Shown piece after piece: positions 17,044 through 42,522 of a stretch of DNA of 64,000 bases. The notes beneath the pieces were generated by a model. The model was given only the letters and a program-made list of their open reading frames with translations, made no database searches and was not told the origin of the DNA. The translations under genes and the position numbers were made by a program. The DNA is from Planctomycetota bacterium. Lineage in GTDB: Bacteria; Planctomycetota; Planctomycetia; Pirellulales; Pirellulaceae. The stretch is from assembly GCA_026692845.1 (NCBI GenBank), contig JAPLNM010000089.1, forward strand, positions 1 through 64,000, read 5' to 3'. Every line of letters starts with the position of its first letter. Position 1 is the stretch's first letter.

Positions 17044-18174
17044 ATGGCCAATCAATCAGCCAAACCTTCATTCCATAGGCAATCGGTATTCCATAGGCAA
17101 TCGGCACCCGAGCGAATCCTCATCGTTCGGCTTTCGGCGGTTGGGGATACGATCCTTTCGCTTCCGATCCTGTGCGCACTTCGAGACCGTTTCCCGGAAT
17201 CGAAGATCGCTTGGGTGGTCGGAAAAGGGGCCTCCGATTTGCTTCGGGGACATCCGGACCTCGACGATCTGTTCGTGCTATCGAAGGATCAAACCGCATC
17301 GCCGAGGGCTTATTGGAAGTTCCTTCAGACGATCCGTCAGTGGAAGCCCGATACGTCGATCGATGCTCAGGGGCTTACCAAGAGTGCTTGGATCGCGCGT
17401 TTCTCGGGAGCCAAGCGTCGGATCGGGTTGTGCCGCTCGGAGTTCGAAGGCCGGGAACTGAGTACTTGGCTGAACAATCAACTCGTCATTCCCGAGCACG
17501 CGCAAGTCGTCCTGCGAGGGCTTGAACTGCTCAAACCCTTGGGCATTGAGGCTCCGGAGGTCGAGTACAGAATACCGCGAGATACCCAGGCCATTTCGAG
17601 CGTCGATGCGCAGTTTCAGGGATTGGATATGCCTGAGCATTGGGGGATTCTCAATGTCGGTGCGGGTTGGCCGTCGAAGATCTGGCCAACGGAGCGATAT
17701 GCAGCCGTAGCTAGGCACCTAGGAGAACGTTGGGGTTTGCCAACATGGATTGCTTGGGGTGGCCAGGAGGAGGGTAAGATAGCCCAAGCCGTGGTCCAAG
17801 CATCTGATTCCTGGGCCAGAATGATGCCACCGACGCGTCTTTTAGAGTTGGCCGAATGGATCCGCCGCGCGAGGATTTTCGTCGGATCCGACACCGGGCC
17901 GATGCATCTATCGGTGGCGCTGGATACCCCCACGATCGCGTTGATCGGTCCGATGCCCGTCGAGCGGGTTGGACCATTGGGGCCTAAGCACCTAGGCGTG
18001 CAAAGAGACAGGCTGACTGAACAAGAGCGATCGAACCGCAAATCGGACCTTCGTCCCATGCTCTCGATCCGGGTCGAAGACGTGACGGGTGCTTGCGATG
18101 CGCTCGTGGGTCCGATGGTATCGGCCCAGCGATCGGCGCAAACCACGGGTCCGATCTGGCTTCGAGCTGCTTAG
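17044..18174 (+). CDS. glycosyltransferase family 9 (heptosyltransferase-like)
   Basis: A 376-residue GT9 enzyme. The N-terminal motif RILIVRLSAVGDTILSLPIL (about residues 22-41) and the C-terminal GSDTGPMHLSVALDTPTIAL are the donor-binding signatures of ADP-heptose:LPS heptosyltransferases. It likely adds a heptose-like sugar to LPS core at the inner membrane, consistent with the kds genes at 52.9-54.6 kb. The first 20 residues include an 18-bp duplication (17070-17105) giving FHRQSVFHRQS. Forms an operon with the upstream radical SAM gene. Confidence 0.9.
   Translation: MANQSAKPSFHRQSVFHRQSAPERILIVRLSAVGDTILSLPILCALRDRFPESKIAWVVGKGASDLLRGHPDLDDLFVLSKDQTASPRAYWKFLQTIRQWKPDTSIDAQGLTKSAWIARFSGAKRRIGLCRSEFEGRELSTWLNNQLVIPEHAQVVLRGLELLKPLGIEAPEVEYRIPRDTQAISSVDAQFQGLDMPEHWGILNVGAGWPSKIWPTERYAAVARHLGERWGLPTWIAWGGQEEGKIAQAVVQASDSWARMMPPTRLLELAEWIRRARIFVGSDTGPMHLSVALDTPTIALIGPMPVERVGPLGPKHLGVQRDRLTEQERSNRKSDLRPMLSIRVEDVTGACDALVGPMVSAQRSAQTTGPIWLRAA
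17070..17105 (+). repeat. 18-bp in-frame tandem duplication in the GT9 gene
   Basis: ATTCCATAGGCAATCGGT and ATTCCATAGGCAATCGGC lie head to tail and encode a duplicated FHRQS-type hexapeptide ahead of the catalytic domain. Confidence 0.85.
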
Positions 18175-18297
18175 TGCAACCCGTTTGGCCGTCGATTACA
18201 ATTTTGCTTTATGGTCCATTGGATTTTTTGTTTGCATGCCTGTGGCGATCACTCGAGTGCGCTTTATTTTAGAAAACCTACCCTTGGGAACTGTTTT

Positions 18298-19566
18298 ATG
18301 AAACGTCGATTTGCATTTGTTCTTGTCGCATTGAGCTTTAGTCCGTTGGGTCCATTGTCGGCCAACGATTGGGTTCAATGGCGAGGTCCGAACCGCGATG
18401 GGATTGCCAAGGAGTCGGGACTGATGGATCAGTGGCCCGAACAGGGGCCTGAGATTTCCTACAGGACCAAGGGATTAGGGTCGGGGATGGCCAGTCTTGC
18501 GATTCACGCGGGGTTGCTCTACACGATCGGCAATATCGACGGAAAAACGAACTTGGTCTGTCGCAATGCGGGGGATGGAGCCGAGGTTTGGGCGACTGCG
18601 TTTACCGACGATAAGGGAGCTGCCAACGGGACACCGACGATCGATCCAGAGACTGGATTGGTTTATGCCATGAGCTTCGATGGGGTCATGGTCTGCTGTG
18701 ATGCCAAGACCGGCAAGGTGGCTTGGAAGAAGAGTTTCACGGGAGACTTTGGGGGCAAGATGGAGTCGGGTTGGGGGTACAGTGAATCTCCGTTGATCGA
18801 TGGGGATAAGTTGCTGTGCACTCCGGGAGCATCCAAGGCGATGGTCGTGGCGTTGAAGAAAAAAACGGGTGAACTGATTTGGGCCGGCAAAGCGCCCGAG
18901 GGCAAATTGCGAGGCAATGACGGCGCGGGCTATTCATCGATTGTGATCTCCAATGCTGCGGGGCGCAAGCAATACGTTCAACTCGTTGGACATGGAATCG
19001 TCAGTTACGATGCAGCTACCGGTGAATTGCTTTGGAACTACGATCGGGTGGCCAATACGACAGCCAACATACCGACGCCACTGATCAGCGGCAACTATGT
19101 CTTTTGCTCGACTGGCTATGGAGATGGAGGAACGGCTTTGCTGGAGATTTCGCCTAACGCGAATCGCTCCTTGGGCGTCAAAGAAATCTACTACAAGTCC
19201 TCGAAGGAGTTGCAGAACCATCACGGCGGGATGATCATGATCGGCGAGCACGTTTACATGGGTCACGGCCACAACAATGGCTTTCCTGCTTGCGTCGAGT
19301 GGAAGACCGGCAAGGATCTATGGGACAAAGGACGCGGGGCAGGGGGGGGATCGGCTGCGATCGTCGCTGCCGACCAGAAGCTTTTCTTTCGGTATCAAGA
19401 TGGCATGATGGCGATGATCGACACCGACACGAACGCTTACAAATTGCTGGGCAAGTTCAAGCTTGCGACACACAATGGCGAGAGTTGGCCACATCCGGTG
19501 ATCGTCGATGGCAACCTTTACATTCGAGACCAAGATGAGTTGATCGTCTACAAGATCAGCAAGTAG
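18298..19566 (+). CDS. secreted PQQ-like beta-propeller protein
   Basis: A 422-residue exported protein (signal residues 1-21, ending GPLSA-N). The mature protein starts with DWVQWRGPNRDGIAKESGL, the WRGPxRDG motif shared with the propeller at 10880-12214. Blades recur with the pattern DAKTGKVAWKKSF, KKKTGELIWAGK and DAATGELLWNYD. The ATG at 18298 starts directly with the signal peptide; an open frame to 18211 adds 29 non-signal residues and is rejected. No PQQ-dehydrogenase catalytic residues are apparent. Confidence 0.88.
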   Translation: MKRRFAFVLVALSFSPLGPLSANDWVQWRGPNRDGIAKESGLMDQWPEQGPEISYRTKGLGSGMASLAIHAGLLYTIGNIDGKTNLVCRNAGDGAEVWATAFTDDKGAANGTPTIDPETGLVYAMSFDGVMVCCDAKTGKVAWKKSFTGDFGGKMESGWGYSESPLIDGDKLLCTPGASKAMVVALKKKTGELIWAGKAPEGKLRGNDGAGYSSIVISNAAGRKQYVQLVGHGIVSYDAATGELLWNYDRVANTTANIPTPLISGNYVFCSTGYGDGGTALLEISPNANRSLGVKEIYYKSSKELQNHHGGMIMIGEHVYMGHGHNNGFPACVEWKTGKDLWDKGRGAGGGSAAIVAADQKLFFRYQDGMMAMIDTDTNAYKLLGKFKLATHNGESWPHPVIVDGNLYIRDQDELIVYKISK

Positions 19567-19620
19567 GTTTTCAGTCGAGGGAGGCTGAGAAACCCCCTGT
19601 GGCCCTTCGGGCTGAAGACG

Positions 19621-19638
19621 CCGATGCTACCGCATCGG
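19621..19638. terminator. possible bidirectional stem-loop between convergent genes
   Basis: CCGATGC (19621-19627) and GCATCGG (19632-19638) can form a 7-bp stem between the convergent propeller and PPC-domain genes. No T-tract follows, so termination is only a possibility. Confidence 0.35.
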
Positions 19639-19706
19639 GAAGGTGTGAGCTGAAGACGAATAAAGGCCTTGGACCAATACCTTCTAAAAGACATGGAGAA
19701 CCGTTT

Positions 19707-21263
19707 TTAGGGAGCGATCCGGAGCCAAAGGTACGGTTGTTTGGTGCTAGTGGCGTTCGCCAAGTTCTTTTCGTTTCGGCCCTGAGTCTCGACTTCGATC
19801 GAGACAGGGCCGGCCCAAGCAGCGGCTGCCGAGCCATCTGCTTTGGGAGTTGCAATCACTTTCAAGATGACCTTTTTTTCACTCTCTTCTTTGGCTTTGG
19901 AGACGGCCGCTTGGCAAGTGTACTCGGGTCCGAGTCCGAGCAATCGCACCGTTGCTTCGTCGATGCATCCGTGGGTCCGTTCCAGGGTTACTTCGATTTC
20001 GGTCGGCTTGTCCGGTTTGCCTTGGATGATGTCATTGGCAAGCGTGCCCAGGACCGAGGGAGCTTCGTTTTCGAGTTCCAGGCGGTATCGATACGTAGGT
20101 CCAAAGCGACCGTGCAGATCGCGCACAGCGATCCGATAGACGCCGGCGGTTTTCATTTGGCCAACCAGGACCGGATCCTTGATCTCCCCTGATTCGCCTT
20201 GTTTGCCGAGCGACTTGTTGGCGCCATCGAGAACTTCGATCACCGCATCGAGTGGCGAGCCTAGCGATTCGGCCATCGCCGAGATTTTCCAGAATCCGGG
20301 GGTTGTGGTTTCGATCTGCAGGACGTCTTCGTCGCGGGGCGATTCGAGCGTTCCGAAAAACAAGTAGCGGCGTTGGTTATCCACCAGAGGCACGGCCGTG
20401 GGCATATCGCGTTGGCTCGGTTCGCCGATGGGGGTGGCTTGGGATTGAAATCCTTGTGCTAAATCATCGACATCGCCGATGAGGCATTCGATGCGGTAGA
20501 GGTACTTGTCGCCACCGGCGTATCCGATGGTGCTATCGGGGGCTTCTGGGAACGCGTAGATACGAACGCAGAAGAGTCCATCGCGGGGTGCGTTGAAGAC
20601 CAAGCGGGGGTCCAGGCCGAGGGTATCGAGGTTTTGAGCGAGAACATTCCCTCGTTCGTCGACGATTTCGAGGCAAGCGTCCATCGGGGATTTGAGTGTT
20701 CGATTCGCTTCGACGCTTGCGACGAATCGTTGGCCCTTGGTGAGCTTGACTTGGAAGTGATCGACGTCTCCGGATTTTTGCAACAGGCCGTGGAGTTCGA
20801 CCGGCAGCGAATCGATCGATTGGGGTTTTGCAAACGCGTCGTTGGGTTCGATTTCAAGGACCCCGGGCAGATCGCTTACGAGGAATCGCAGCAGAGGCGA
20901 TGCGCTTTCTGCAGAGTGCAAGCGGACCCAATGGAGTCCGAGTTTTGCATCGGCAGGGATGGTTGCTGTGATTTTGCCGGGGGTATCCGTCGCTGTCCAT
21001 TGGATTGGTGCGGCTTGGATTGGTGCGGCTTGGATTGCAGCAGGTTCGTTCCAAAAAGCCACGGGCCATTTCTCGAACTTACCGGGCAGTTCGATCGTGA
21101 CCGTTGCGTTGCGTTGTCCACCGGTTGGAAGCAGGCGAGCCGCGTCGAGGTTCTGGGCCATTGCATGGCGAGTCAAGCAAGATCCGGCGGCTAGGAGCCA
21201 GAGCAACGCGTAGCTGATCTTTGGACCAACACCGATCCTAGCGGGGGGTTGGTGATAGGGCAT
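19707..21263 (-). CDS. secreted PPC-domain protein
   Basis: A 518-residue exported protein (signal residues about 15-36, ending HAMA-Q). Two bacterial pre-peptidase C-terminal (PPC) beta-sandwich domains are visible: residues about 145-250 (EIEPNDAFAKPQSIDSLPVE, DVDHFQVKLTKGQRFVASVE) and about 285-400 (RYLFFGTLESPRDEDVLQIE, VYRIAVRDLHGRFG). No catalytic domain is seen. It is the last gene of a tight three-gene operon (3-nt gap) with DUF1501 and DUF1549/1553 proteins, so it probably acts with them at the cell surface. A 15-bp duplication (21002-21031) encodes AAPIQAAPIQ. Confidence 0.85.
   Translation of the reverse strand: MPYHQPPARIGVGPKISYALLWLLAAGSCLTRHAMAQNLDAARLLPTGGQRNATVTIELPGKFEKWPVAFWNEPAAIQAAPIQAAPIQWTATDTPGKITATIPADAKLGLHWVRLHSAESASPLLRFLVSDLPGVLEIEPNDAFAKPQSIDSLPVELHGLLQKSGDVDHFQVKLTKGQRFVASVEANRTLKSPMDACLEIVDERGNVLAQNLDTLGLDPRLVFNAPRDGLFCVRIYAFPEAPDSTIGYAGGDKYLYRIECLIGDVDDLAQGFQSQATPIGEPSQRDMPTAVPLVDNQRRYLFFGTLESPRDEDVLQIETTTPGFWKISAMAESLGSPLDAVIEVLDGANKSLGKQGESGEIKDPVLVGQMKTAGVYRIAVRDLHGRFGPTYRYRLELENEAPSVLGTLANDIIQGKPDKPTEIEVTLERTHGCIDEATVRLLGLGPEYTCQAAVSKAKEESEKKVILKVIATPKADGSAAAAWAGPVSIEVETQGRNEKNLANATSTKQPYLWLRIAP
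21002..21041. repeat. 15-bp in-frame tandem duplication in the PPC gene
   Basis: GGATTGGTGCGGCTT occurs at 21002-21016 and 21017-21031, followed by a partial third unit. On the coding strand it gives repeated AAPIQ. Confidence 0.8.
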
Positions 21264-36058: not shown

Positions 36059-36355
36059 ATGTCCACAACAGCAGCACGGATTGTCGGTTTCGATTGGCTT
36101 CGAGTTCTAGCGCTTTTGCTCGTGACGGTCTTTCATGCACTGGGGCTTTTGGGTCTTGACGCCTGGACTAAAATGGCTGGCCTGAGCATGGGTACCTTGG
36201 GGGTGTCGCTTTTTCTTGCTCTAAGCGGGGCCTTGATTGGAAACGACGGTCGGCCTGCATTCGAGTGGTTGGTGGCGTCAATCGCAGCGGTGCTGATGCA
36301 GAAGGCCGTTTCAAGGTGTTTGGGTTTTTTTCTCAATCCGAAGCCACCGGGCTGA
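36059..36355 (+). pseudogene. truncated acyltransferase-3 family fragment
   Basis: A 98-residue frame whose first 60 residues (RIVGFDWLRVLALLLVTVFH, then GLSMGTLGVSLFLALSGALI) are the N-terminal part of a membrane acyltransferase of family 3, normally 350 or more residues. After WLV the similarity ends and the tail is Cys/Pro-rich; the frame then runs into the opposite-strand gene at 36333. The rest of the enzyme is absent from the window. This is the third broken gene in a row. Confidence 0.6.
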
Positions 36356-36869
36356 CCCACGATATTGCTTCAGACTGGCCGGATTTTGGTACCGTGGGTG
36401 TTTCTGGCAGGACGAATTCGCAAACCCCTCGAGCGCTGTTGGGTAGTTTTGCGAACACCGTTACTTCGCGGACATTCCGCGTCCCGACTGGAAACGGGAC
36501 GCTTCCGTTTCTAGCGATAAACGCCGATAGGGGGATCGAAACTGTTTTCCCTGCGGGTATGCCTGAGGGTTCCGAGGCGTAAAACTGGCTGCTGCGTCGG
36601 AACTTGTTGATGCCGATGGTCAGTTGGCTCCAGGGCTCCGACGTCGGGTTCCAGATGGAGATCGCTGGTACGAGTTTTTGTTGCCCGGGGTTTTTGGGAT
36701 CCTGAACCCACATCCCATCGAGGCGCACGCGTGCATCGAGAAGCGGCTCGGTCATCGGCTTGGACAAAAAGAACAGAGCGACAGCCGAGCAGACTGGGAT
36801 CAGGATTGCTCCCAGGATCAAACCGGTCAACCCGAGTCGGCTCAAGCGAATCCCCGGATGCTTCGACAA
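36333..36869 (-). CDS. hypothetical membrane-anchored protein
   Basis: A 178-residue protein with one N-terminal membrane helix (LGLTGLILGAILIPVCSAVALFFL, about residues 12-35) and a soluble extracytoplasmic domain of about 140 residues rich in beta-type sequence (WVQDPKNPGQQKLVPAISIW, GIPAGKTVSIPLSAFIARNG). I do not recognise the family. Codon composition and the clean anchor argue that it is real. Its 3' end overlaps the acyltransferase remnant by 23 bases, tail to tail. Confidence 0.65.
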   Translation of the reverse strand: MSKHPGIRLSRLGLTGLILGAILIPVCSAVALFFLSKPMTEPLLDARVRLDGMWVQDPKNPGQQKLVPAISIWNPTSEPWSQLTIGINKFRRSSQFYASEPSGIPAGKTVSIPLSAFIARNGSVPFPVGTRNVREVTVFAKLPNSARGVCEFVLPETPTVPKSGQSEAISWVSPVASD

Positions 36870-37285: not shown

Positions 37286-39538
37286 GTGTCCAAAATCTCC
37301 CGCGATCCACTAGCCGATCCTTTAGCACAACTGGAATTGGATTTTCTTGCCCAAGCCTTAGGCGATGGTACGAGTTTAAAGTCCCTGTTGATCGAGCGGG
37401 AAAAAACGTTGGGGATCGGTCCGGAAAACTCTCTGGCTGGCCAGATCGAGTCTGCCTTTGCGCATGCTAGGACGATGGTCGAGTCGCCCGTATGCCCGAT
37501 CGTAGCGGTTCTGGGGATGCTCAACGCGGGCAAGAGTTCTCTGGTCGCTACGTTCCTTTCACCACCGAAAAGAGCCTCTGCAGGGCGAGTGCTGATCGGT
37601 TCGGCCAACACCGAGGGAACGCACCGATTTGTCCTTTGGCTCCCTGAATCCTGGAGGAGCAATTCGGTCATCTGGGGTTTTTTGTCGAATCGTCTGACTC
37701 AGGTATTCGGGTGTGCGCCCGAGGAACTTGCCGTCAGTGCTGAGCAAGCCGCCCAGCAGTACAACGATCAGTCGATGCGAGAAGTGTTCGATGTTTCGGG
37801 TAAGCAAGTGCGGCGAAGCGCGTTGGAGGTTCCACTGGTGGCAAGCGACCCGCAGCTGGATCGTTTGGGAATTGCGCTCATGGACTGCCCGGATGTGCAA
37901 ACCGGTTTGATGTCTGGTTGGCTTTCCGAACCGGACCTAGCCCGCACCACACGCTTGGACGAACTTTCGATGGCAGCATCCGAAGCCCGCTTTGCGGTGC
38001 TCGAGCGTTCCGCGTTGGTCTGCAGCGCCTACATCGTGGTCCTGCCTGCAAATGCGATGCATGACCAGACGGTCAGTCGACTTTTGAAAATGCTCGAGGC
38101 CAAGATGCCTCATGTGCAACGGATGTTGGCAGTCAATCGTGTTCCGCGAAAATACGATTCCTCGGAGATCTCGCATGAGATGCGGACCTTGTACGGTTTT
38201 TCCAATCCGAGCCGAATCTATATGGCATATCATTTCGAGGGCCCACAGAGGCGGGAAAAACTCCAGAGCGTTCCTGGCGAAATATCCGATCGAAACGATA
38301 CGCATCTGCCTGCATTTTTCAGGATCGACCAAGCCCCGGTACCCCAGCCCCCCGACCCCATCGACGATGCAGCATGGATGCTTCGACTCGGCGAGCAGCT
38401 CCAAGGCAACGCGTTGCTTTCCGACGCGATCGATTCGTCCTTGACGAACCTGAAGATCGCAGCGGTGCGTGGGTTGCAAACCGCGCGCGATTGGATTTCC
38501 GAGAGCAATCGCCGTCTAGCGTCGATTCACAGCATCATCGCCCAGGCTTGTTTGGACTTTTCCCTCGATCCTTCGGCACCGGCAAGCCAACCTAAGATCC
38601 GATTGCAGGCTTCTCGTCAGGTTGTCGAGCAAATCGCCGAATCGCTCGAGCGGACCGCTCCGTGGTGGGCCAAACCCGGTCGATGGATGCAGCGATTGGC
38701 ACAAGCCAGCAAAGACTCCGTCGGGTATGCCACCTCTTGGATGAAGATGCCCACGTGGATGATCGATCGGGGCAATACCGTCGGGCAGTGGGCTCGCACA
38801 CGGCTTCAGCGAGGCGAGAGTGGTAAGGTCGTCACGGCCGATGTGTTGGTCGATGCGTTGGCCAAGTGCGATCGCCGAGGGCTTTTGAGTCTCGATGATC
38901 GAGGAACCCAACGCGAGCACATCCGCGAGGCTTGCCAGCAGGCCATCACTCGATTCCAAGCAGAGAGTTCGACGCAGTTGGATCCCGAGCAAGTCGATGG
39001 GCTGACGAAGAAGCTTTGGGAGCAGATGCCCATGGGCAAGCGGATCATCCGAGGAGTAGCTCCCGCGGGGATCCTTTTTGCGCCGCTGCTTGCAGTGATC
39101 ATGATCCCGTTGGACTTTGGCGGCTCGTCGGTTCTGGTCTTTGCATCGCTCAAGGAATTGTTGTTTGCAAGCGCCGCAGGTTTTGGATTGATGCTTGCTA
39201 GCGGAGATGGCATGCCGCAATTGGCAGAGTCCGAATCGGCTTGGCAGCAACTTTCGGATCTGGTCGCCGTTTTGACCGATCAATTCGGACTGGCGCGCAA
39301 GCCTGCGAGCGACCCGACCGAAGTGACGCTCGGGACTACCACTCGGAAATTGGCACCCAGTACGATCGCCCCGAATCGCCAGCCGACGGCATGTCTTCAA
39401 GGGATTCCATCTAGCGAGCGTTCGTCGAACGTCCCGGCCTGGGAGTCCATGGCAAGCGGATTGGAGCGATTGCAGCAGATTCATCAACAAACCACCACAG
39501 GCCCAGCCGGCAAGACCGGCCCAGGAGAGGTTCACTAG
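37286..39538 (+). CDS. dynamin-like membrane GTPase, first of a pair
   Basis: About 750 residues from GTG 37286. The P-loop is G77-MLNAG-K83-S84, of the GxxNAGKS type seen in bacterial dynamin-like and TEES GTPases. G3 is D200-C-P-D203 (DxPG is usual) and N284-R-V-P in LAVNRVPRKYD stands at the G4 position in place of NKxD. A long helical middle part follows and a hydrophobic segment at about 592-640 (GILFAPLLAVIMIPLDFGGS ... LKELLFASAAGFGLML) likely inserts in the membrane. The start is uncertain: a frame is open back to 37109. The second GTPase begins 2 bases after its stop. It probably acts in membrane remodelling, by analogy to DynA/DynB-type pairs. Confidence 0.8.
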   Translation: MSKISRDPLADPLAQLELDFLAQALGDGTSLKSLLIEREKTLGIGPENSLAGQIESAFAHARTMVESPVCPIVAVLGMLNAGKSSLVATFLSPPKRASAGRVLIGSANTEGTHRFVLWLPESWRSNSVIWGFLSNRLTQVFGCAPEELAVSAEQAAQQYNDQSMREVFDVSGKQVRRSALEVPLVASDPQLDRLGIALMDCPDVQTGLMSGWLSEPDLARTTRLDELSMAASEARFAVLERSALVCSAYIVVLPANAMHDQTVSRLLKMLEAKMPHVQRMLAVNRVPRKYDSSEISHEMRTLYGFSNPSRIYMAYHFEGPQRREKLQSVPGEISDRNDTHLPAFFRIDQAPVPQPPDPIDDAAWMLRLGEQLQGNALLSDAIDSSLTNLKIAAVRGLQTARDWISESNRRLASIHSIIAQACLDFSLDPSAPASQPKIRLQASRQVVEQIAESLERTAPWWAKPGRWMQRLAQASKDSVGYATSWMKMPTWMIDRGNTVGQWARTRLQRGESGKVVTADVLVDALAKCDRRGLLSLDDRGTQREHIREACQQAITRFQAESSTQLDPEQVDGLTKKLWEQMPMGKRIIRGVAPAGILFAPLLAVIMIPLDFGGSSVLVFASLKELLFASAAGFGLMLASGDGMPQLAESESAWQQLSDLVAVLTDQFGLARKPASDPTEVTLGTTTRKLAPSTIAPNRQPTACLQGIPSSERSSNVPAWESMASGLERLQQIHQQTTTGPAGKTGPGEVH

Positions 39539-39540
39539 CG

Positions 39541-41325
39541 ATGGAAGATCCAATGCAGATGGTCGAGCGGATCGAGCTAGCATCGCAGCAGTTGCTCGGC
39601 TCGCATCCGGTACGATTTCAGATCGCTCGATGGTGCGAGGAATTTCGCCAAGCGGCCAACGATATCCTTCACGACCGAGGCGTGTCATTGCCGTGCATTG
39701 GAATCATCGGAGCCAAGGGCCAGGGTAAGACTTGGGTCGTAAGGCAGTTGGTGCTTGACCCGGCGATCGCGCAGCTATTGCCTAGCGGCGTGCTGGCCAA
39801 AGAGGCTACTACAAAGCTGCATTGGATTGGTCCTGTAGCACCTGATGCTTTGGACCCGAGTCGCGAATCCTATCTGGCTTGCCCAGCCAAAAGCATGCTC
39901 GATTTTCAAAGACCTTACATGGTACTCGATACTCCGGGTTACACCGATGAGGATCCGATGGCAGCGGCCATCGCCAAGGAGGCCATGAGTTTGGCCCCGA
40001 TCAAGATTCTCGTTGCCCGACGCGATCAGCTTCGAAGCGCCATCCACGTGCAACTCGCTGCGCTGACCGAGGGGACCGTATGCATGCCGATAATCACTTG
40101 CGTTCCGCAGAGCGAATCGAGCCATACGGGTAGCCACACCAACAGCCTTCAAAGGGATATCGAATGGTACACAGCAGCCTTGAGTTCCAGCGCCCCTGGG
40201 ACTCGGTTTCTTGAGCCGGTTCTCGTCGCGGACTTTGAAGCCATGGGGGATGAAGCGAGCATAGCAAAGCAACTGCAAAACGATCTGATCGCAAGGCTCG
40301 CGCACGAGGATCTCAAGGTTGCATCGGCGACCAAATCGGTGCGGCTCAGGACCGCTAGCGACCGGCTCGGGCATCGGGTTTCCGAGGCTATTGAGACGCA
40401 GGTCCCACAGCTTTCCTCGGCGATCGCTCAGTTGGCATCGACCGCTGATGCATTACCGAGCCAAGCCATTGAGATGGTGCTCGGTTCGAAGCATGTCTTG
40501 CGGAATGCGATCCGAGACCGCATTCGCGGAGAGTTGATTTCCTCGACCGGGTTGTTTTGGTTTCCCTATCGTACCCTTCTGGGAGTGCTGGGCTTTACGC
40601 ACGGTGCTTGGGACCGTCTGATCCTCTCGATGACAGGCAGTTTGCCGTCGATTTTCGGAACCTTCGTGACATGGGCCAAGAACGTCAGCAGTACCCGTCA
40701 GGCGCATCAGGAGTTGCAAGACGGGATCAAGGAATACTTGAACAAACAGATCCAAGATCGATTGCTTCCGGCGCAGCAGGAGTTTTATCGCGCGATCGAT
40801 CGGATTGGAGGCACGAGCCGGGACCCGGTCCGCGATTCCCACCGGGTCGACTCGGGCCTTCGGATCCGCATCAGTGGCATCGATGCCTTGCAGGTCCAAG
40901 CCCGCGGGGTATTTGACGAAACGCTTCATAAGTATCGGATACCGCGATGGCTTTTGCAGTTGCTTGGGTTTGGTGCAACCTTGGTGTTTTGGGCGTTGAT
41001 GGCCGGCCCGATCATCGCTATCTATCGGCAGTACTTTTTGGCGACGATGAACGCCTGGAGCGACGGCACGAAGGACCTATCGGAGTTCCCGAGTCCTAAG
41101 GCGACGATGATGTTCACGGCGTTTGGGATCTCGACACTTCCGGTGCTGCTAATCGCGATGCTTGTGATGGGTTGGTTCCAGCGAGCTAAGCGGCTCGACG
41201 CGATCGCCGAGGAAATCTACTCGGCGGAGTTGCAGAAAGTCGAGTCGCTCAAGCGCGATGGGACGATCCGACTGTACTACGAAGACCCTTTGCTCCAAAA
41301 CGCGGAGTACCTTACCTCGCTTTAG
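39541..41325 (+). CDS. dynamin-like / P-loop membrane GTPase, second of a pair
   Basis: A 594-residue protein. The P-loop is G57-AKGQG-K63-T64, and G3 is D130-T-P-G133 followed by YTDED. No NKxD is visible; ITCVPQS stands where G4 is expected. Helical segments follow (residues about 260-460), then two membrane helices (about 470-495 and 523-545) and a short charged cytoplasmic tail. It starts 2 bases after the first GTPase, so translation is coupled and the two probably assemble together. It differs clearly from its partner in sequence, so it is not a simple recent duplicate. Membrane fission, fusion or tethering is an inference. Confidence 0.8.
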   Translation: MEDPMQMVERIELASQQLLGSHPVRFQIARWCEEFRQAANDILHDRGVSLPCIGIIGAKGQGKTWVVRQLVLDPAIAQLLPSGVLAKEATTKLHWIGPVAPDALDPSRESYLACPAKSMLDFQRPYMVLDTPGYTDEDPMAAAIAKEAMSLAPIKILVARRDQLRSAIHVQLAALTEGTVCMPIITCVPQSESSHTGSHTNSLQRDIEWYTAALSSSAPGTRFLEPVLVADFEAMGDEASIAKQLQNDLIARLAHEDLKVASATKSVRLRTASDRLGHRVSEAIETQVPQLSSAIAQLASTADALPSQAIEMVLGSKHVLRNAIRDRIRGELISSTGLFWFPYRTLLGVLGFTHGAWDRLILSMTGSLPSIFGTFVTWAKNVSSTRQAHQELQDGIKEYLNKQIQDRLLPAQQEFYRAIDRIGGTSRDPVRDSHRVDSGLRIRISGIDALQVQARGVFDETLHKYRIPRWLLQLLGFGATLVFWALMAGPIIAIYRQYFLATMNAWSDGTKDLSEFPSPKATMMFTAFGISTLPVLLIAMLVMGWFQRAKRLDAIAEEIYSAELQKVESLKRDGTIRLYYEDPLLQNAEYLTSL

Positions 41326-41366: not shown

Positions 41367-42371
41367 TTATTGCGGCTCTGGCTCTGGTTCTGGTTTGGGG
41401 ATATGTCCGAAGCGGGTTGCGGCCCAACAGGCCGCACCGATCGCGCCGGCATCGTCGCCTAGCTCCGCGAGTTTGATCTTGAAGATGTCCTGGTAGCATT
41501 CGAGGACATTTTCAGAGACGATCTTTTTGACTTCTTCGAGATATAGCTGGCTCAGAGCCTCGACCAATCCGCCCCCTAAGAGGATCACTTCGGGCGTGAG
41601 CATGTGGATCAGGTTGACTGCCGCATATCCGATGGTACGCGCGGCCCGTCGGACGACGATCTCGACCTGTTCGTCCCCACCTTTGATGGCTGCGGCAAGG
41701 ACTTTGCTGCGGATTTCTGCGACATCCGAACCAGCGAGTTTGGCGAGCACCGGAGCTTCGTTGCGATAGGCTAGTTTGGCGCAATGCGAGGCGATTGCCA
41801 AACGACTTGCTTCGCTTTCGAGGGTTCCGCCCATGGGGGTCCCACTGGTATGTTCGCTTGAGGAAATTTTGGTGTGGCCGATCTCCATGCCGGTATGCGA
41901 CTTGCCCCGCAAGATCTGGCCTTCGTAGACAAAGCCACCTCCGATGCCGGTACCTGGGAAAATCCCTGCCACGCTGTGGGCGTTGCGTGCGGCTCCACAG
42001 ACGTACTCCCCGTAGACACCTGCGTCAACGTCGTTGAGAACCGCGACGGGACGACCAAAGGCCTCTTCGAGCTGCTTGGCCAAGGGGACATTTTTCCACT
42101 TGAGATTCACGGCCACGTGGACGATCCCCTTTTCCATGTCGACTGGACCTGGGCAGCCGATTCCGATGCATTGGACACGTTCGGGCTCGACGCTGGCTTT
42201 GGCGAGTGTCTCTTGGATCAGTTCGATGACTCGGGTGATTCCGGCCTGACCGCCGTCGGATCCCCTGGTTTTCTTGCGCTCGCGAAAAAGTATTTTCTTT
42301 TTATGGTCCATCAAGACGCAAAGCATCTTGGTCCCACCCAGATCAAAACCGCAGTAGATGTTCTCGCTCAT
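41367..42371 (-). CDS. ROK family sugar kinase (glucokinase-like)
   Basis: About 334 residues from ATG 42371 (MSENIYCGFDLGGTK). ATP-binding and family motifs: GFDLGGTKMLCVLMD, GIGCPGPVDMEKG, the catalytic aspartate in LNDVDAGVYGEY, GTGIGGGFVYEG, and the C-terminal GDDAGAIGAACWA. The usual zinc-binding CxCGxxGC cluster after the ExGH motif is missing: here EIGHTKISSSEHTSGTPMGG has no cysteine. It likely phosphorylates glucose or a related sugar in the cytoplasm. The C-terminus is a PEPEPEPQ run. Confidence 0.9.
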   Translation of the reverse strand: MSENIYCGFDLGGTKMLCVLMDHKKKILFRERKKTRGSDGGQAGITRVIELIQETLAKASVEPERVQCIGIGCPGPVDMEKGIVHVAVNLKWKNVPLAKQLEEAFGRPVAVLNDVDAGVYGEYVCGAARNAHSVAGIFPGTGIGGGFVYEGQILRGKSHTGMEIGHTKISSSEHTSGTPMGGTLESEASRLAIASHCAKLAYRNEAPVLAKLAGSDVAEIRSKVLAAAIKGGDEQVEIVVRRAARTIGYAAVNLIHMLTPEVILLGGGLVEALSQLYLEEVKKIVSENVLECYQDIFKIKLAELGDDAGAIGAACWAATRFGHIPKPEPEPEPQ

Positions 42372-42522
42372 GGCATTCACGCAGGGACTATCCTCAAAAC
42401 AAAAATTACTTCGCGCGGCTGATTATACCCGCAATCGATTTTTTGGTTGGGTACAATACACGCCTGCTAGAACCTTTCCCAGATTTGATCCTCCCTACCT
42501 CCCTTGATTTGAAACGCATCCC

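Follow-up and report, generated by a model that had tools for sequence, protein, structure and literature searches.

A probable heterotypic pair of divergent dynamin-like proteins encoded by adjacent genes in Pirellulaceae

The stretch of DNA considered here (the window) consists of 64,000 nucleotides from a Planctomycetota bacterium of the family Pirellulaceae (assembly GCA_026692845.1, contig JAPLNM010000089.1, positions 1 to 64,000), and its subject is a pair of adjacent genes, called A and B. The original prediction, made from the sequence of the window, was that they encode a divergent dynamin-like pair. Fold matches of the predicted proteins and the joint presence and absence of the two genes in related genomes support this reading, and A and B probably make up a heterotypic complex of divergent bacterial dynamin-like proteins at the cytoplasmic membrane. 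Both predicted co-directional open reading frames (ORFs) are present, with the stop of A at 39538 and the ATG of B at 39541, a spacing of 2 bases on the same strand:

37286–39538, forward strand: gene A, putative dynamin-like nucleoside triphosphatase subunit, 750 amino acids, GTG start
39541–41325, forward strand: gene B, putative dynamin-like partner, 594 amino acids, ATG start at 39541

The longest frame of gene A begins upstream, at TTG 37109; the start at GTG 37286 agrees with close relatives, in one of which (G013) the open frame permits at most 747 amino acids.

The two genes are kept or lacking together. A survey of 199 genomes of the window's family found A in 91 and B in 91, with 90 genomes carrying both and 107 neither. 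The exceptions are one genome with A only (G233) and one with B only (G222). The A match of the former reaches the final base of its contig, while the B match of the latter begins at a contig end, so that both are cut at the contig edge on the partner's side and neither shows a true loss. Thus, of 92 genomes in which either gene was found, 90 carry both, and the expectation that homologues would stay paired was not refuted. In 68 of the 90, B comes directly after A on the same strand (the two profile matches lie within 2.5 kb of each other, and within 240 bases in 66). The other 22 have the genes apart, at a distance of 10–13 kb in some and much farther off or on different contigs in others. 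Contig breaks do not account for these separations, since at least 2 kb of contig is present where the partner would sit. The separated cases fall in seven genera (g1, g7, g36, g46, g60, g61 and g82), and because g1, g46 and g60 hold both adjacent and separated cases, at least three separations look independent, with both genes kept. In three genomes of genus g7 (L214, L249) A and B share a strand but lie about 10–13 kb apart.

A and B were each found in 28 of 60 relatives, the window's genome included, which makes the observation more than chance. Each was also found in 25 of 26 sampled congeners, all of which have at least one of the two, some as contig-end fragments. The pair is present in 17 of the 68 genera of the family, a limit on the earlier interpretation, and in a contig labelled Rhodopirellula baltica (L190). 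The A and B distance matrices correlate with r 0.92 over 45 pairs, a value that still contains the shared phylogeny. A followed by B was also seen in G571, G620, G644, G618, G789 and G069, and in metagenome-assembled genomes (MAGs) labelled Verrucomicrobia (L199) and Contendobacter (L205). In two phylum draws of 392 genomes, with three candidates scored per genome, B was found in 3 genomes and A, by its wide profile, in 17, with 3 matches that span the protein and the other 14 being short P-loop matches. At class level A was found in 23 of 297 genomes, one by a short P-loop match, and in the order of the Contendobacter MAG 8 of 40 gave matches, real only in that MAG itself. With few candidates scored per genome, these counts show the A/B family to be rare outside the Pirellula/Rhodopirellula group. 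Two loci have unusual layouts. In G069 the A-B pair occurs twice in tandem, about 6.86 kb apart and with equal scores (C2:10360-13991 and 17215-20846, L212), which would be a genuine duplication or else a repeat made in assembly. In the Contendobacter MAG (L205:5779-8149) A is split into two ORFs adjoining an intact B, and may be a pseudogene, a true split or a sequencing error.

The placement of A and B among dynamins comes from predicted structures. For the underlying wide alignments, 93 A and 70 B proteins were extracted and kept if less than 82% identical to one already kept (67 and 48). Two Contendobacter A fragments were removed, three B rows were added by hand, and proteins below 75% of the profile were excluded, except those of L205 and L210–L212. 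The final alignments hold 66 A and 52 B sequences, with members from contigs labelled Pirellula, Rhodopirellula, Rubripirellula, Roseimaritima, Stieleria, Roseiconus and Aporhodopirellula, among others. AlphaFold2 models built from them were compared by Foldseek, and the Foldseek matches were aligned with VIA-align. The A model (predicted local distance difference test score, pLDDT, 84.7; predicted template-modelling score, pTM, 0.81) has as its top Foldseek matches IniA, DRP1, BDLP, Fzo1 and the Campylobacter pair of dynamin-like proteins (DLPs), at E 4e-6 to 1e-4. VIA-align gave Fzo1 a Z of 19.6 over 322 residues at 4.6 Å (model residues 4–741) and mitofusin-1 (MFN1) a Z of 19.2 over 330 residues. 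The 36 best rows were all dynamin-superfamily or EHD chains, the next other GTPase being Era at Z 12.3. Aligned with Fzo1 and MFN1, A is covered from residue 2–7 to 738–741, the terminal helices at both ends included, so the model supports a neck bundle built from both chain ends, as expected of dynamin.

The B model (pLDDT 85.1, pTM 0.66) matched BDLP first in Foldseek (E 2.3e-9), then Fzo1, DRP1, mitofusin and LeoA (3.5e-6), and VIA-align gave Fzo1 Z 19.0 over 265 residues and mitofusin-1 Z 17.1. The N-terminal part of the neck is well covered (1–288), the best match taking in residues 1–48, and the C-terminal part is covered in few rows. Judged from the models, a dynamin-type G domain is clear for A and less exclusive for B, for which the dynamin case appears somewhat weaker. 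The A and B profiles align with each other across the G domain (hhalign probability 95.5), through which the two proteins are related. The trunk is predicted to consist of long helices with a hydrophobic hairpin in A, and whole-chain superpositions are poor. The absence of a dynamin-like stalk and paddle had been named beforehand as grounds for rejection; no such absence was found, the fold matching dynamin and the neck being supported, while the poor superpositions allowed the trunk and paddle to be tested only in part.

The motifs and hydrophobic segments of the two proteins, counted over the 66 A and 52 B alignment rows, are the following:

37514–37540, forward strand: A G1 motif or P-loop, GMLNAGKSS, residues 77–85; GK in 65/66 rows
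37607–37639, forward strand: A block N-x-x-GTHRFVLW, residues 108–118, probable G2/switch I
37883–37894, forward strand: A variant G3 motif, DCPD, residues 200–203; Asp replaces the usual Gly in 66/66
38135–38146, forward strand: A variant G4 motif, NRVP, residues 284–287
39059–39193, forward strand: A hydrophobic hairpin, residues 592–636, with a conserved PxDxGG turn, probable membrane-inserting tip
39709–39732, forward strand: B P-loop, GAKGQGKT, residues 57–64; GK in 49/52 rows, missing in three divergent ones
39928–39939, forward strand: B G3 motif, DTPG, residues 130–133; Asp in 49/52, Gly in 49/52
40096–40107, forward strand: B G4 position, TCVP, residues 186–189, no NKxD; N or T first in 43/52
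40954–41016, forward strand: B predicted membrane helix 1, about residues 472–492, within predicted helix 469–508
41113–41175, forward strand: B predicted membrane helix 2, about residues 525–545, predicted helix 521–546

Canonical GTP-specific dynamins have DxPG as G3 and N/TKxD as G4, and neither A nor B carries both together. The motifs of A are unusual yet conserved (GxLNxGKS, GTHRF, DCPD for DxPG, and NKxD minus its Asp). T112, R114, F115 and W118 occur in 66/66 rows, N284 in 65/66 and K or R after it in 61/66, Asp at +3 occurs in none of the 66, and the sole row lacking the P-loop GK is a truncated protein (L188). In B, Asp is found at the G4 position in 2 of 52 rows. The features first read from the sequence thus hold on closer analysis: the P-loops GMLNAGKS and GAKGQGKT, the G3 motifs DCPD and DTPG, the lack of a clear NKxD, the long helical stretches (predicted at 374–426 in A and at 371–426 and 469–508 in B) and the C-terminal hydrophobic segments, where mean alignment hydropathy peaks at about 592–634 in A and about 475–490 and 526–541 in B. 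In the A model the block at the hydrophobic tip has a pLDDT of 51–75, and its short helices suit a paddle-like inserting hairpin better than two full membrane helices. The hydrophobic helices of B, as modelled, would be long enough to span a membrane.

The nucleotide site of B can be lost. No P-loop occurs at any point in the B proteins of L210, L211 and L212 (families f120 and f10, and genus g44, which belongs to the window's own family), and those of L208 and L209 have GKG at the loop end. The A partners in L210–L212 retain GxLNxGKS and DCPD, and the B profile still matches the helical and membrane region there. The absence of the B site in three divergent lineages implies that it is dispensable, and its loss while the A motifs are kept suggests that A would be the obligate nucleotide-binding subunit and that the helical and membrane part of B would be essential.

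Pairing among bacterial dynamins, noted in the original prediction, is established (PMC6104087, PMC4159319). Published work describes two Campylobacter DLPs forming a 2:2 tetramer that bridges membranes, with heterotypic complexes proposed as the norm (PMC6104087). It also describes IniA, which cuts membrane tubes with GTP and belongs with IniC to a mycobacterial operon of two DLP genes, iniBAC, that encodes IniB too (PMC6715688), an operon of DLPs comprising LeoA and LeoB/C (PMC4159319), and a role that a bacterial DLP can have in phage resistance (PMC8844932). Two neighbouring, jointly inherited DLP genes, the mark of such heterotypic pairs, are what was found for A and B. Cj-DLP1 and Cj-DLP2 of Campylobacter jejuni (PDB 5owv, 5oxf) likewise come from two side-by-side genes, and their chains are among the Foldseek matches of both models; by sequence there is a marginal P-loop match only (5owv_A, E 0.17 with the A profile), and A differs in having DCPD and no G4 Asp. 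The IniA/IniC operon (PDB 6j72, 6j73) supplies the top Foldseek match of A, 6j73_B, but differs from A/B in the additional IniB and in giving no sequence match in the PDB searches. BDLP1 of Nostoc (2j68/2j69), Fzo1 and mitofusin are the best fold matches of A and B, in A with neck helices at both ends, but whole-chain template-modelling scores (TM-scores) are low. BDLP1, Fzo1 and mitofusin also differ in being single proteins or isoforms and in having canonical G motifs. LeoA (4aur) is among the Foldseek matches of B, but the Eleos system (LeoA/LeoBC) gives marginal PADLOC scores, with no full-length model match (LeoA 13.9 bits over A residues 31–92, nothing for the window's B). A and B, moreover, are genus-wide and were not found on plasmids.

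By likeness to the Campylobacter pair and IniA, we propose the following function. A would be the conserved nucleotide-binding subunit, with its G domain on a neck bundle from both chain ends and a long helical trunk ending in a hydrophobic, probably membrane-inserting hairpin. B would have the same kind of G domain and an N-terminal neck, its most conserved core being the helical region with two predicted membrane helices, and would act as the membrane-anchored partner and regulator. Contacts between A and B that depend on nucleotide might in turn serve to tether, bend, fuse or cut membrane, in the manner of Cj-DLP1/2 or IniA. The analysis shows the sequences, their conservation, the co-occurrence of the genes and the predicted folds, and from there we infer the physical complex, the membrane insertion, the remodelling activity and the choice of nucleotide. 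Possible cellular roles include membrane repair, the shaping of the bud neck or of invaginations, and defence.

Within the window the A-B pair stands alone, since both flanking ORFs lie on the reverse strand: a divergent ORF of 178 amino acids upstream of A (36333–36869) and an ORF downstream of B (41367–42380). The upstream ORF encodes a small protein with a single N-terminal hydrophobic stretch, has no NCBIfam match and is shared with 20 loci, all from the window's own genus and 36–92% identical to the window's copy; it is also kept at loci where B has relocated. The original prediction that the pair shares no operon with other gene types is true of the window, where no TolQ/ExbB-like gene follows B, but does not extend to 32 of 70 distinct related loci, in which clustering of neighbouring ORFs places a MotA/TolQ/ExbB-like gene directly 3' of B (26 in L165–L225, with L243–L246, L250 and L252). 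The count takes genes within 800 bases after B, at loci where 900 bases or more lie downstream of B; 5 of 81 loci were set aside as duplicated DNA, and 6 of the remaining 76 as having less than 900 bases there.

Several observations weigh against the dynamin-like interpretation. No Pfam or NCBIfam curated family covers A or B of the window, neither reaching a cut-off in Pfam or NCBIfam. Dynamin_N (PF00350) matches A at the P-loop with 13.8–14.1 bits against a gathering cut-off of 27, and A is accordingly not filed as a member of that family; MMR_HSR1 gives a sub-threshold 11.6 bits on A with the shorter start. B has no Pfam match, NCBIfam has none for either protein, and in PDB sequence searches A matched nothing and B gave marginal dephospho-CoA kinase matches only. 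Among the 52 B members the commonest weak Pfam match is AAA_22 (37/52), and other weak family matches, mostly to P-loop proteins, include DpdH (E 2e-5, in 11/52). Query-normalised TM-scores are at most 0.34 in both lists, the trunk arrangement being unmatched. For B, EF-Tu at Z 16.4 comes near Fzo1 and ties with mitofusin-1. The missing G3 Gly and G4 Asp of A mean that GTP hydrolysis and guanine specificity cannot be assumed. Finally, a MAG labelled Saccharospirillum (G833) has A with no B detected; its contig starts 111 bases before A. Profile matches of the wide alignments in the PDB were short P-loop matches or chance matches with helical or designed proteins, and they leave the placement of A and B to rest on fold rather than sequence. 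DUF463 and DUF697, the domains of YcjX and YcjF, were not among the Pfam matches of the window proteins to E 10, a search in which HMMER filters drop most weak matches. A PF00350 search of the window's genome for canonical dynamins gave ten matches at nine places, of which six, judged by reading the sequences (for some, their first 120 residues), resemble Der, HflX, two ABC-F proteins, FeoB and probably IF-2. As a control, the same search found matches in 14 of 14 genomes, above the cut-off in 13, so that it is unspecific and the lack of a canonical dynamin is not proved.

A rival reading makes A and B ordinary TRAFAC GTPases, in which an Era- or EF-Tu-like G domain carries unrelated helical membrane tails. 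MMR_HSR1 is the commonest weak Pfam match among A members (32/66, versus 13/66 for Dynamin_N, whose best E is 4e-5) and also weakly matches 32/52 B members (best 1e-6, versus 21/52 for Dynamin_N), and for B translation GTPases score not far below Fzo1. Against it stand the 36 best VIA-align rows of A, all from dynamin-superfamily and EHD chains and with alignments that take in the terminal neck helices, and the extension of the best B match into residues 1–48, and this explanation appears unlikely. A defence function against phage or membrane damage, of the Eleos or DynA type and in place of a housekeeping one, has a precedent in the phage resistance cited above and could explain the patchy distribution over genera. 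PADLOC gave weak matches to LeoA for A (E 0.0052) and to LeoBC for the Contendobacter B (E 0.0047), but the former is confined to residues 31–92, and the best matches among the ten proteins were to other models, ZorA (E 5e-4) and CARF3 (E 4e-4), each for one divergent B. A plasmid collection yielded nothing by tblastn for A or the Contendobacter B. A or B is present in all 26 sampled congeners, and the divergent neighbour common to 20 loci within the genus points to a stable, vertically inherited locus; both speak for a housekeeping role rather than a defence island, and the defence explanation is quite unlikely.

The TolQ/ExbB-like neighbour raises another explanation, that A, B and TolQ form an envelope machine linked to the proton-motive force, for instance in budding or outer-membrane constriction, with the dynamin pair as one part. 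The gene remains beside B in 6 loci where A has relocated, overlaps the end of B by 4 bases in 9 of the 24 loci with both ORFs listed, and has tolQ as its best NCBIfam match (E 3e-22; 79 bits against an equivalog cut-off of 221). Yet it is missing from 38 of the 70 loci as well as from the window, and the counted loci, some of them from close species, are not independent of one another. Similar genes occur in each of 14 genomes tested, of which nine carry A/B and five do not, and in 3 of 4 inspected genomes lacking A/B (L259, L260, L262) they appear, from their sequences, to have two ExbD-like ORFs after them. The best relative in the window's genome lies elsewhere (G000:C29:86932-87594, 54% identical). 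Co-location is not interaction, and nothing joining a bacterial dynamin with TolQ was found in the open literature. The link with B is lineage-specific and only a lead, and the envelope machine is unlikely. Combining this lead with the loss of the B site would give a new class of asymmetric bacterial dynamin machine, in which A, the invariant nucleotide-binding subunit, has a DxPD switch in place of DxPG, B drifts to a pseudo-GTPase membrane anchor and, in the Rhodopirellula lineage, is physically coupled to a proton-driven TolQ/ExbB stator; the machine would shape cytoplasmic-membrane invaginations or the bud neck. No bacterial dynamin-like protein described as a pseudo-GTPase was found in the open literature, and this elaboration, too, is improbable.

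The heterotypic dynamin-like complex therefore remains the preferred reading. No description of the A/B pair was found in the open literature, and the accessible part of PMC7203096 does not mention 'dynamin'. Paired bacterial dynamins are already known; what sets A/B apart is the DxPD switch, the loss of the nucleotide site on one side only, and the TolQ neighbour. Planctomycetes are without FtsZ, and for these bacteria the finding provides a dynamin-like pair that is inherited jointly. How they bud was called unknown in a 2014 review (PMC4164004). The pair also offers a natural experiment on paired dynamins, since the nucleotide site of A is kept in all untruncated homologues examined and B can lose its own. 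Because genomes keep or lack A and B together, the two are good candidates for an undescribed membrane-remodelling complex.

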